Source: Flavobacterium sp. LC2016-12
GTDB lineage: Bacteria > Bacteroidota > Bacteroidia > Flavobacteriales > Flavobacteriaceae
NCBI RefSeq assembly: GCF_015351595.1
Contig: NZ_JADKPT010000001.1
Location: 682,001-746,000, forward strand
DNA: 64,000 bases
Direction of reading: 5' to 3'
This document shows, piece after piece, positions 23,200-42,410 of this stretch (position 1 is the first letter of the stretch; each line of letters starts with the position of its first letter). The position numbers were made by a program, and so were the translations under genes. The notes beneath the pieces were generated by a model. It saw nothing but the letters and a program-made list of their open reading frames with translations. It ran no database searches and was not told where the DNA came from.

Positions 23200-23303
23200 T
23201 TAATAATTTTTGAGTGTTATTAAAATAATTTATAATGATTGTGTTTAGAGGTTTTGTAGAAGGAAGCGTCGTTATGAAAATTTTTGAGGATTGAATAGAA
23301 TAA

Positions 23304-23380
23304 AGAGTCAAGAGTCAAGAGTCAAGAGTCAAGAGTCAAGAGTCAAGAGTAAAGAGTCAAGAGTAGAGAGTAAAGAGTAA
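23304..23380. repeat. Tandem array of a 7-bp unit (GAGTCAA)
   Basis: About eleven copies of GAGTCAA with variants GAGTAAA and GAGTAGA. It lies between the divergent osmC and met promoters. Confidence 0.9.
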
Positions 23381-23469
23381 CTAATAACTAATAAAATTAT
23401 TTAATCTACTATTTTGATAGGTTAATAAAAGTTTTAATGATTTATGAGGTAAAATTGAAAATTACTCTT

Positions 23470-23477
23470 TAAATTTG
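23470..23477 (+). promoter_or_regulatory. -7 promoter element of the met leader transcript
   Basis: TAAATTTG matches TAnnTTTG. No good -33 is visible at 19-21 bases. Transcription would start near 23484, almost at the first ATG of the leader peptide, so either the leader is translated leaderless from 23486 or translation begins at the second ATG (23507). Confidence 0.5.
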
Positions 23478-23485
23478 CAAACGCA

Positions 23486-23578
23486 ATGAGAAATAAGAGC
23501 CACAATATGAAGAATTATTATAACAGCAACAAAATGATGTGCTGGGATACTGTAATGATTATAGGGGCTTCTATATAA
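23486..23578 (+). CDS. Methionine-rich leader peptide of the metNIQ attenuator
   Basis: A 30-codon frame with Met at positions 1, 8, 17, 18 and 24 (five of 30), including the tandem Met-Met-Cys-Trp (ATG ATG at 23534-23539). If translation begins at ATG 23507 it has 23 codons. It ends 17 bases before a 13-bp terminator stem, and the methionine-import operon starts 75 bases downstream. This is the layout of ribosome-mediated attenuation: stalling at the Met codons when methionyl-tRNA is scarce would free GGGGCTT (23564-23570) to pair with AAGCCTT in the terminator's left arm. The peptide itself is not expected to have another role. Interpretation is inference; the frame and pairing are directly visible. 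Confidence 0.65.
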   Translation: MRNKSHNMKNYYNSNKMMCWDTVMIIGASI

Positions 23579-23595
23579 AATAATACTATTTTTTC

Positions 23596-23634
23596 AAAAA
23601 GCCTTTCATGAGTAATTTGAAAGGCTTTTTTGTT
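23596..23634 (+). terminator. Attenuator terminator upstream of metN
   Basis: Perfect 13-bp stem AAAAAGCCTTTCA (23596-23608)/TGAAAGGCTTTTT (23618-23630), 9-base loop and T-run, located between the promoter and the metN start at 23654. A strong terminator in a leader only makes sense if it is conditional. The left arm can pair alternatively with GGGGCTT at 23564-23570 at the end of the leader peptide frame. Confidence 0.8.
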
Positions 23635-23653
23635 TTTAAACTAAAATTAAAGA

Positions 23654-24685
23654 ATGATTGAATTAAAAAACGTTAGTAAAACTTTTCATCAGAAAGACCG
23701 AATTGTTTCGGCGCTATCGGATGTCTCGCTAAAGGTTCCGCCAGGGAAAATTTTTGGTGTAATTGGAACTTCGGGAGCAGGAAAAAGTACTTTAATCAGA
23801 TGCGTTAATTTACTGGAAAGACCAACTTCAGGAGAAATTATCGTGGATGGAAAATCCCTGATACAATTATCAAATGCTCAATTGGCTATTGAAAGAAGGC
23901 AAATCGGAATGATTTTTCAGCATTTTAATTTACTTTCTTCGAGAACAGTCTTTGAGAATGTTGCTTTTCCTTTGGAATTAGCCGGAACATCAAAAGCAAT
24001 AATTAAGGAAAGAGTTTTAGAATTACTTCAATTGGTTGGTTTATCCGAAAAAGCAAATGATTATCCGGCAAGTCTTTCGGGAGGGCAAAAACAAAGAGTT
24101 GCCATTGCGAGAACATTAGCCAATAATCCAAAAGTTTTATTGTGTGATGAAGCAACAAGCGCATTGGATCCTGCAACCACAAGATCTATTCTGAATTTAT
24201 TGAAAGACATTAATCGCCGACTTAATATTACAATTTTACTGATTACACACCAAATGGAAGTGGTAAAATCAATTTGTGATGAAGTAGCCGTAATTAGTCA
24301 CGGAAAACTGATAGAGCAGGGAAGTGTAGGCGAAATTTTTGCCGACCCAAAACACGAACTGACAAGAGAATTTATAGCTTCTTCTTTGCATCTGGATATT
24401 CCTGCTGTTTATCAGGAAAGATTACAAAAGGAAGATGGAGAAAATTTAAACCCGTTATTAAGACTTGAAATGACAGGGAAATCAGTAAATGAGCCTGTTA
24501 TTTCAGAAGTTTCACGATTATTTGATACTAATTTTAAAATTATTAGTGCCCAAATGGATCAGGCGGGTGAAGTTAATTTCGGGATTATGCTGATCGAGTT
24601 ATCCGGTAAGCGCGAAAACTACAAGGCTGCCATCGAATATTTTATATCAAAACATATTAAAACTGAAATCATAGGTTATGTCTGA
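23654..24685 (+). CDS. metN: Methionine ABC transporter, ATP-binding subunit
   Basis: The 343-residue protein has Walker A GTSGAGKS (residues 38-45), Q-loop in MIFQHFN, signature LSGGQKQR (141-148) and Walker [13 protein letters not shown]. The C-terminal about 80 residues form the NIL domain that in MetN senses methionine and inhibits transport (ending [15 protein letters not shown]). It energises uptake of L- and D-methionine through MetI with binding protein MetQ. The frame overlaps metI by 8 bases, indicating translational coupling. Confidence 0.93.
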
Positions 24686-25331
24686 ATCCATTATTGAATT
24701 ATTATTAAAAGGAACCTGGGAAACGATCATCATGACATTTTTGTCTGGCTTTTTCGGCTTCCTGCTAGGACTTCCAACAGGTATTTTCCTTTTCCTTACC
24801 CGAAAAAATCAAATATTAGAACAGCCTGTATTAAATAGAGTTTTATCTGTTTTGGTGAATATTTTCCGTTCTATTCCCTTCATTATCTTAATTGTCTGGA
24901 TGATTCCGTTTACCCGCGCGATTGTTGGAACATCAATTGGCGTTAGTGCGGCATTGGTTCCGTTAAGTATTGGGGCAGCGCCCTTTATTGCACGATTGGT
25001 AGAGAATAGTCTTTTAGGTTTGCCATCAGGATTAATTGAAGCGGCAAGAGCTTTAGGTGCAACGCCTTTTCAAATTGTATATAAAGTATTATTGCCGGAA
25101 GCATTGCCTTCTTTGATAAATGCAGCCTCTATCACTTTAATCACTCTTGTAGGATATTCTGCAATGGGCGGAGCAGTAGGAGCAGGCGGTTTAGGACAAG
25201 TGGGCTATCAGTACGGTTATATTGGGTATGATGCGGTAACCATGAATTCGGTATTGGCTTTATTGGTGATTCTGGTATTCCTGATCCAGTTTGCCGGTGA
25301 TACCTTATCAAAACGATTTGATCACAGATAA
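24678..25331 (+). CDS. metI: Methionine ABC transporter, permease subunit
   Basis: The 217-residue membrane protein has five hydrophobic segments and the EAA loop that docks on the ATPase ([24 protein letters not shown], about residues 127-150). Size and composition fit MetI. It sits between metN (8-base overlap) and the binding protein (37-base gap). Confidence 0.93.
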
Positions 25332-25368: not shown

Positions 25369-26193
25369 ATGAAGATGAATACGAAATTAAATTTCTTTAA
25401 AACAGCCGGAATTATTGCCTTATCACTTGTTTTATCAAACTGTGGAGAAAACAAGAAGAACGATCCGCACCACATTAAAGTAGGAGTTGCTTCCGGACCA
25501 GAATTAAAAGTGGCAGAAGCTGCTAAAAAAGTAGCCAAAGAAAAATACGGACTTGAGGTGGAATTGGTTTCGTTTAATGATTATGTTATTCCAAACGAAG
25601 CGTTGAGTCAGGGCGATATCGATGCCAATGCTTTTCAGCACAAACCTTATTTGGACGAGCAGTCGAAACAACGCGGTTATAAATTGGCCATTATTGGAAA
25701 AACATTTGTGTACCCGATTGCGGCTTATTCTAAAAAAATAAAAAGCCTTTCTGAATTGAAAAACGAAAGCACTATCATTATTCCAAATGACCCAACAAAC
25801 GGAGGACGGTCGTTATTGCTTTTAGAAAAAAACGGTTTATTGAAATTGCGCTCTGGAGTTGGTTTGCTGCCTAAAGTAACAGACATTGTAAGTAATCCTA
25901 AAAATCTAAAAATATTAGAATTAGAAGCGCCTCAGTTGCCTCGTGCTTTAGACGATCAAAATGTTTCGATTGCTATTATCAACAACACTTTTGCTTCTCA
26001 GGCAGGTTTGGTTCCGGCGCGTGATGCCTTATTTGTAGAAGATAAAGATTCTCCATATGTAAATCTTGTAGTAAGCCGCGAAGACAATAAAAATGAAGAA
26101 AAGGTAAAACAATTTCTTCAGGCATTCCAATCTGCAGAAGTAGAGCAGGCAGCGGTTCGTGAATTTAAAGGTGGGGCTGTGAAGGGCTGGTAG
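25369..26193 (+). CDS. metQ: Methionine-binding lipoprotein MetQ
   Basis: The 274-residue protein has a lipoprotein signal (VLSNC, Cys25) and the NlpA/MetQ fold: IKVGVASGPELKVAEAAKKVAKEKYGLEVELVSFNDYVIPNEALSQGDIDANAFQHKPYL is characteristic of the family. It captures methionine in the periplasm for MetNI and ends the operon. Confidence 0.93.
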   Translation: MKMNTKLNFFKTAGIIALSLVLSNCGENKKNDPHHIKVGVASGPELKVAEAAKKVAKEKYGLEVELVSFNDYVIPNEALSQGDIDANAFQHKPYLDEQSKQRGYKLAIIGKTFVYPIAAYSKKIKSLSELKNESTIIIPNDPTNGGRSLLLLEKNGLLKLRSGVGLLPKVTDIVSNPKNLKILELEAPQLPRALDDQNVSIAIINNTFASQAGLVPARDALFVEDKDSPYVNLVVSREDNKNEEKVKQFLQAFQSAEVEQAAVREFKGGAVKGW

Positions 26194-42325: not shown

Positions 42326-42410
42326 CTCCCCTAGCCCCGATAGTAGCGTAAATCCTTTTGTGCCGGTGTTCGGCACAAAAGATTGCAGCGGATAGCGGGA
42401 AACAGCTCCT
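42326..42410. repeat. Palindromic intergenic element after hsdR
   Basis: The element starts CTCCCCTAGCCCCGATAG and ends GATAGCGGGAAACAGCTCCT, so its ends are roughly complementary. The middle is a perfect hairpin TTTTGTGCCG/CGGCACAAAA (42356-42365 and 42371-42380). It is more G+C-rich than its surroundings. From memory, this wording is common in flavobacterial intergenic regions; its function is unknown to me. Confidence 0.7.

Follow-up and report, generated by a model that had tools for sequence, protein, structure and literature searches.

Introduction

The classical leader-peptide attenuators are those of the trp, his, thr, ilv, and pheA systems of the E. coli and Salmonella type, some of which are multivalent, as in the case of thr (Thr and Ile) and ilv (Ile, Val, and Leu). 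Methionine genes, for their part, are mostly governed by SAM riboswitches, T-boxes, or MetJ.

Reports from other bacterial groups are fewer in kind. According to the available text of one study, leader peptides had, to the knowledge of its authors, been undemonstrated outside Proteobacteria and Actinobacteria before their own Firmicutes case (PMC2965389). Within Actinobacteria, the accessible part of a comparative study predicts cysteine leader peptides in Mycobacterium, Propionibacterium, and Bifidobacterium, without obvious terminators, and states that RNA structures were not seen upstream of methionine operons (PMC1262725). Mycobacteria have leaderless ORFs with polycysteine runs (Canestrari et al. 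2020), which the available portion of PMC13236596 cites as examples of translation attenuation. In Bacteroidota, leader-peptide attenuation has been hinted at in Bacteroides thetaiotaomicron, in the part of the report available (PMC7366714), and in Flavobacterium psychrophilum, where the accessible text describes 5′ regions with structure and leader peptides ahead of operons for amino-acid biosynthesis (PMC9723704). In that study, pheA and hisG are among the conserved elements, and the word "methionine" is absent from the main text as available. Among the matches listed in our search of the open-access literature, as far as their accessible text goes, there is none on a leader attenuator for Met, or for Met and Cys, in Bacteroidota. 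Leader-peptide attenuation as such is long known, and a specificity for Met plus Cys would be the new part.

Here, we describe a leader upstream of the methionine importer genes metNIQ in a 64-kb stretch of Flavobacterium DNA, which we refer to as the window. This leader is very probably a ribosome-mediated transcription attenuator that would read charged Met-tRNA and Cys-tRNA. The basis for this reading in the sequence consists of the parts themselves, their conservation, their recurrence at other sulfur genes, and a compensatory change in one lineage. The locus shares with the classical attenuators a short ORF with a run of pathway codons, a set of 1:2, 2:3, and 3:4 pairings, and an intrinsic terminator before the first gene. 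It differs from them in that its codons are those of Met and Cys, its target is an importer, its start is near-leaderless in this genus, and its host belongs to Bacteroidota. As with the F. psychrophilum elements, in the text available (PMC9723704), we are dealing with leader peptides before amino-acid genes in Flavobacterium. The actinobacterial cysteine leaders resemble it in being short ORFs with Cys runs before sulfur genes, and the mycobacterial ones are leaderless, whereas the metN leader has an intrinsic terminator and an antiterminator, and has Met beside Cys. When the locus is compared to the mycobacterial polycysteine leaders specifically, we find that the terminator is conserved and that the window copy reads Cys-Trp, with Cys-Cys in relatives only. 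Finally, the metN leader would share methionine-gene control with the SAM-I riboswitch (RF00162), but it has no RF00162 match, unlike SAM-I, which binds SAM directly.

Results

Parts of the metN leader

The identities of MetN, MetI, and MetQ follow from NCBIfam cut-offs, all of which are passed (Table 1). Upstream of metN, the parts that a first-pass annotation had read from the bare sequence are all present. These include a frame of 30 codons, or of 23 codons when counted from an inner ATG at 23507, with five Met codons (start included) and a tandem ATG ATG at 23534-23539 followed by TGC TGG. They also include a perfect 13-bp terminator with a 9-nt loop (23596-23630, -15.7 kcal/mol) and the GGGGCTT segment (23564-23570) that can pair with AAGCCTT. 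A small stem, CAGCA/TGCTG, surrounds the Met codons as that annotation had described, although it spans 23524-23544 rather than ending at 23543. This stem is partly kept in relatives (88.5% of alignment cells paired, with one pair broken in 15/39), and as it overlaps the Cys codons, its conservation says little.

Table 1. Features of the metN locus in the window (positions within the 64-kb stretch).
Feature	Position	Strand	Remarks
Imperfect palindrome	23404..23421	+	CTAYTAnnTTGATAG type; possible regulator site upstream of the putative promoter
Putative promoter -7 box	23470..23477	+	TAAATTTG; fits TAnnTTTG
Leader peptide ORF	23486..23578	+	MRNKSHNMKNYYNSNKMMCWDTVMIIGASI; 30 codons + stop (stop 23576-23578); predicted near-leaderless
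Segment 1	23497..23501	+	GAGCC; partner of segment 2 in the predicted ribosome-free fold
Proposed control codons	23534..23545	+	ATG ATG TGC TGG (Met-Met-Cys-Trp); MMCC in 27/41 close leaders
Segment 2	23564..23570	+	GGGGCTT; putative antiterminator, left half; within the last codons of the peptide
Segment 3	23596..23608	+	AAAAAGCCTTTCA; terminator left arm / putative antiterminator right half
Segment 4	23618..23630	+	TGAAAGGCTTTTT; terminator right arm; continues into T tract
metN	23654..24685	+	methionine importer ATPase; TIGR02314, 549 bits vs cut-off 499.7
metI	24678..25331	+	methionine importer permease; NF008049, 380 bits vs cut-off 212
metQ	25369..26193	+	methionine-binding lipoprotein; NF008285, 436 bits vs cut-off 374

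The metN leader matches no Rfam family at gathering score. In agreement with the first reading of the sequence, in which no SAM riboswitch motif was visible, neither RF00162 nor any other SAM family matches the leader at gathering thresholds, and the same library detects SAM-I elsewhere in the genome. The T-box family is also without a match in the window at gathering thresholds. The folding energy of the leader is low relative to that of shuffles (z = -3.6). Among the 21 combinations of short ORF and terminator that our script lists on both strands of the 64-kb window, only one is rich in Met and Cys, namely the metN leader.

In F. psychrophilum, the TAnnTTTG box occupies positions -12 to -5, according to the available text of PMC9723704. 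By this spacing, transcription of the metN leader would start at approximately 23482, and the ATG would follow approximately 4 nt later; both promoter and transcription start are thus predicted from the box. A near-leaderless start of this kind would be unusual, as leaderless mRNAs amount to just 5.5% in F. psychrophilum in the same text (PMC9723704).

Conservation within Flavobacterium

A search for MetN in 249 genomes of the genus and 395 of the order returned 96 distinct genes (E <= 1e-95). A leader occurs at the corresponding position in 41/41 metN genes whose products are 89.8-100% identical to that of the window, all from the same genus, with F. araucananum, F. aquidurense, F. pectinovorum, and F. 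hercynium among the relatives at 92-95% identity. The distance from box to ATG is 8 nt in every one of these 41 leaders. L177, which scores under the threshold of the script, was counted by eye. The script, which requires a TAnnTTTG box within 450 nt, reports no leader for 7/48 MetN genes of the genus (L171, L172, and L198-L202; 55-78% identity). At the DNA level, a search of 150 genus genomes with the metN leader recovers 22 further loci with long matches; apart from metN leaders, it returns short matches only, mostly to the terminator part. Two rows of an early 23-row alignment, L008 and L022, are blank (metN start string missing), and their peptides could still be read.

The Met/Cys core is kept in 40/41 close leaders, the exception being L143, which reads YC. 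Within the core, CC is found in 36 leaders, MM in 31, MMC in 30, and MMCC in 27. The window copy reads MMCW, which places it among the minority without the second Cys, while L140 and L147 read NNCC, having retained Cys-Cys with both Met residues gone. The first-pass annotation had taken the Met codons to be the controlling ones. The presence of MM in 31/41 leaders agrees with this, but CC is at least as frequent, and the TGC TGG of the window turns out to be a minority form.

Several measures bear on whether this is a translated frame. A Met/Cys run of at least three is found in frame in 35/41 leaders, in the other two frames in 0/41 and 5/41, and in 3% of shuffled leader bodies. By eye, indels preserve the frame. 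The Cys codons are divided between TGT (54) and TGC (46), and because both are in use, it is the residue rather than a single base string that is conserved. Over the first 12 codons, minor letters number 62, 61, and 125 at codon positions 1, 2, and 3, respectively, and synonymous single changes are slightly above expectation (14% vs 11%). These counts indicate that, apart from its core, the peptide is modestly constrained.

metN leaders in other genera

Outside the genus, we observe metN leaders in two further genera. The Chryseobacterium type (g240, in another family) has 39 MetN genes, of which 17 carry a leader, such as MKSNFRNQSIKKHTINTMMMYCCMPELRNCCG, with a different terminator; Chryseobacterium taiwanense (L111) is a named example. 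These leaders, with a core that is mostly MMxYCCMP, are unrelated to that of Flavobacterium. MM is found in 17 of the 17, CC in 14, and Met-Pro after the core in 17. In the third genus (g276), 5/5 metN leaders have Cys-Cys and no Met pair, as in MTGKMFCCCDLTFRIYMKK and in MLKFVCCIRFI; these leaders, too, are unrelated to the Flavobacterium one and have other terminators. The box lies 18-28 nt from the ATG in both genera, and these leaders are therefore not near-leaderless. Over all three genera, the 63 metN leaders contain Cys in 63 cases, CC in 55, and MM in 48.

Many distant metN genes have no leader, and most of these have a distinctive gene context. At an identity of <=58%, there are 42 MetN genes, 25 of them without a leader. 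For 23 of these 25, metN is preceded at a distance of 12-59 nt by the end of an open frame 285-384 codons long, which suggests that metN is probably an inner operon gene at these loci. Among the leader-bearing distant metN genes, 0/17 have a frame of at least 100 codons that ends within 150 nt upstream.

Leaders at metY and at a metX-like gene

An ungapped search of the genome for the MMCC motif points to contig C10 and a cluster of sulfur genes there. Here, two tandem leaders, MKLIVCNMSCMMPEPSAETLL and MKTIAKTNMMCCSMMQMCIQPCYCQK, each with a terminator behind it, lie upstream of metY, which encodes O-acetylhomoserine sulfhydrylase (TIGR01326, above cut-off). Further along the cluster, a third leader, MKMQEFKITNKSQMNKSLQMNKMFTVAFICVCVC, and its terminator are followed by a small frame and then by a SAM-I riboswitch upstream of a metX-like gene, for which the best NCBIfam match is MetX at 190 bits, under the cut-off of 500. 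Of the C10 leaders, the second and third are conserved in five relatives, and the first was detected by the scan in 1/5. The genome has two SAM-I riboswitches (RF00162), one before the metX-like gene and one before a metH-like gene. In addition, a SAM-II riboswitch (L284:11987-12093, + strand) lies upstream of metK, divergent from metY; with it, leader-peptide control would exist in this genome beside both SAM-I and SAM-II. In L284, a small ORF comes right after the second metY leader and another right after that of metX, ahead of the SAM-I riboswitch (61 and 66 aa; one at L284:11154-11339, - strand). Both have an SLLFxMY stretch near the C-terminus and no Pfam match at E <= 0.1.

In these metY and metX leaders, the last part of the peptide frame contains a segment complementary to the left arm of the terminator (e.g., CCAAAAG : CTTTTGG). 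In 12/14 leader cases, this pairing is equaled by <=3.5% of shuffles; the two exceptions are the genome's own second metY leader (4.5%, a middling result) and its own metX leader (22%, a weak one).

Across the family, metY was found in 106/159 genomes, and all 106 upstream regions were examined. A Met/Cys leader is present in 12, SAM-I in 79, SAM-II in 1 (L359), and neither in 14. The upstream stretch is short, at a contig end, in L299 and L381, which are without leader or with SAM-I. Two of the 12 leader-bearing regions belong to this genus and ten to other genera. Tandem Met/Cys leaders occur in 8/12 (L290, L291, L294, L297, L298, L363, L392, and L393); examples of metY leaders are MKSLLNKMMCCCMMCMCMHPARYVLKGGT (L294), MNTIFNFLTFMMMCCMRMMCCYMIRYCQT (L393), and MKLNTNIMSMMMWKVSARATIM (L368). 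Although leader and SAM-I coexist before the metX-like gene in this genome, they are never found together in the 106 metY regions (p = 8e-9, relatedness uncorrected).

Upstream of metY, 20/29 candidates with a short ORF and a terminator are Met/Cys-rich, versus 0/20 of the other candidates in the window, 0/14 in 24 loci with an MMCC pattern, and 0/11 when 60 metY regions were read on the other strand (Fisher p = 2e-11). The three sets of metY regions in which the 20/29 were counted give 11/13, 5/9, and 4/7. The 24 loci are those at which the strict pattern of MMCC plus GGCTT occurs among 299 family genomes (22 genomes with matches); they have no Met/Cys-rich short ORF with a terminator and hence look like chance matches, and we set them aside. 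What the leaders of metN, metY, and metX share across several genera is that Met and Cys codons precede a terminator at genes for sulfur amino acids, a pattern that fits attenuation in which the ribosome responds to Met-tRNA and Cys-tRNA.

Methionine, cysteine, or both

Although the first-pass interpretation as an attenuator held up when relatives were compared, its restriction to methionine did not, as Cys is at least as conserved as Met. A leader that senses methionine alone, with incidental Cys codons, now appears unlikely. The genes downstream are those of a Met importer, and Met pairs are indeed present in 31/41 close leaders and in 17/17 of the second genus; furthermore, the metY leaders of L306, L368, and L369 are Met-rich with no or one Cys. 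Against these observations stand the counts over the 63 metN leaders given above, in which Cys exceeds MM, the loss of both Met residues with retention of CC in L140 and L147, the third genus with its CC and no MM, and the use of both TGT and TGC, which points to conservation of the Cys residue and not of one base string.

The converse, that cysteine alone is sensed and that the Met codons provide pacing or context, is quite unlikely. It would account for the fact that all 63 metN leaders have Cys while not all have Met pairs, and Actinobacteria offer a parallel in their predicted cysteine leader peptides, in the text available (PMC1262725). On the other hand, it leaves aside the Met runs retained in Cys-free metY leaders, such as that of L306 (MILNTMMRFMFMMWKSSAARAIV, a Met run without Cys) and that of L368, as well as MM in every leader of the second genus. 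The bias itself varies: several first metY leaders lean toward Met, the metN leaders of g276 lean toward Cys, and many have both. We retain the reading in which Met-tRNA and Cys-tRNA would both be sensed.

Some residues beyond the core are also kept, in particular YY in 36/41 close metN leader peptides, and adjacent Cys residues could in general bind metal. Both points would suit an arrest peptide, in which a metabolite, a metal, or the redox state, and not a shortage of tRNA, would cause the nascent chain to stall the ribosome. Arrest peptides depend on specific residues, whereas the peptides of other genera and those of metY and metX share, by eye, little except Met and Cys. With sulfur amino-acid genes behind all of the leaders examined, we judge an arrest mechanism to be very improbable.

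Alternative pairings and predicted folds

Pairings were assessed on 40 distinct genus sequences, L153 being a duplicate of L152 that was left out of the alignment. The terminator (3:4, 12 pairs) has 98.3% of its cells paired, and two of its pairs show double changes. Both the codons and the alternative pairing, which the first-pass annotation had proposed to follow through relatives, are conserved: alongside the core (40/41), the 2:3 pairing (GGCTT:AAGCC) is intact in 97.5% of cells. It shows no double change in the window's genus and thus neither supports nor refutes the antiterminator there. A third pairing, 1:2, was absent from the first-pass annotation. It is mostly CCAG:CTGG in relatives and conserved in the genus, with 96.9% of cells paired, and two of its pairs each have a double change in a single cell. 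The GGCT of segment 2 begins between -10 and +14 nt from the first base of the stop codon in 41/41 close leaders, and is thereby within reach of a ribosome halted at the stop.

The covariation that the first-pass annotation had proposed as a test is found in part, and in another lineage than the window's. In the 17 sequences of the Chryseobacterium type, the predicted antiterminator is GUGGU:ACCAC, with its partner in the terminator loop, where the terminator itself hardly constrains it. In three related sequences, two pairs of this antiterminator have changed on both sides to give GGAGU:ACUCC. Because this is a single event, and because GTGGT is displaced by a few bases in the alignment in four Chryseobacterium-type sequences, we consider the compensatory change to be moderate support. 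The share of shuffles with a 2:3 energy as low is 4%, a clear result, for the Chryseobacterium type and 9%, a weak result, for the window's genus. In the third genus (g276), the energy of the 2:3 duplex is no better than that of shuffles (47% as low).

Ribosome positions were mimicked by folding truncated leader RNA. An RNA that begins past the Met-Cys codons and runs up to the terminator loop is predicted to adopt the antiterminator (-10.6 kcal/mol), one that begins past a ribosome at the stop adopts the terminator (-15.7 kcal/mol), and in the entire leader 1:2 and 3:4 form together. Once the right arm is included, the terminator is favored even in the stalled-ribosome fold, and it follows that the switch would have to be kinetic, like that of the classical attenuators.

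A constitutive terminator or insulator, behind a frame that is there by chance, would have in its favor that a short frame next to a terminator-like hairpin is not rare, as the 20 other candidates in the window illustrate. Chance would not, however, keep the frame in position in 41/41 leaders or the core codons in 40/41, nor would it conserve the alternative pairings or produce the same design at other sulfur genes, and we give this explanation next to no weight.

Other features of the window

The imperfect palindrome upstream of the putative promoter (Table 1) resembles others that we noted by eye. Similar palindromes (CTAYTA..TGATAGGGTAAT-like) occur upstream of metY in L284 and upstream of sulfate-assimilation genes in L283, as well as before metN in Pedobacter and Dyadobacter, where the leader was not detected. 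They are possibly a shared site for a sulfur regulator. When up to 3 mismatches are allowed, a scan of this genome returns 48 places versus 94 in the reversed control, and as the scan is below its control, no regulon can be claimed from the palindrome. Just 5′ of the metN promoter region, a run of 7-base repeats (AGAGTCA-like) is visible by eye at approximately 23303-23381 of the window. Farther away, at 42329-42406, the window contains a Flavo-1 RNA (RF01705, 78.8 bits), a motif of unknown function.

Discussion

The arrangement before metNIQ suggests the following mechanism, in which translation of the leader, stalling of the ribosome, and the response to starvation are predicted. When Met and Cys are plentiful, the ribosome would reach the stop codon and cover segment 2, such that the 3:4 terminator forms and transcription ends before metN. 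When charged Met-tRNA or Cys-tRNA is scarce, the ribosome would stall at Met-Met-Cys(-Cys), leaving segment 2 free to pair with segment 3, and the polymerase could proceed into metNIQ. In the absence of a ribosome, segment 1 would sequester segment 2, and the terminator would form.

A wider proposal is that metN, metY, and metX belong to a flavobacterial attenuator regulon for sulfur amino acids, in which Met-tRNA and Cys-tRNA are read jointly. The attenuator would stand in place of SAM-I at metY in several lineages and ahead of SAM-I at metX, and its Cys codons may be needed because Met starvation weakens fMet-dependent initiation. We regard this proposal as a whole as evenly balanced. Its last element deserves separate comment, as methionine starvation should slow initiation too, which could blunt an attenuator that reads Met. 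That the Cys codons are a remedy for weakened initiation under Met starvation is speculation.

If the attenuator reading is true, it would add a new specificity, Met plus Cys in Bacteroidota, to leader-peptide attenuation. It would also mean that a metabolite-sensing riboswitch and a ribosome-sensing leader have been exchanged at one and the same gene, metY. Finally, it would raise the question of how the supply of methionine can be sensed by an attenuator, given that every protein begins with this amino acid.
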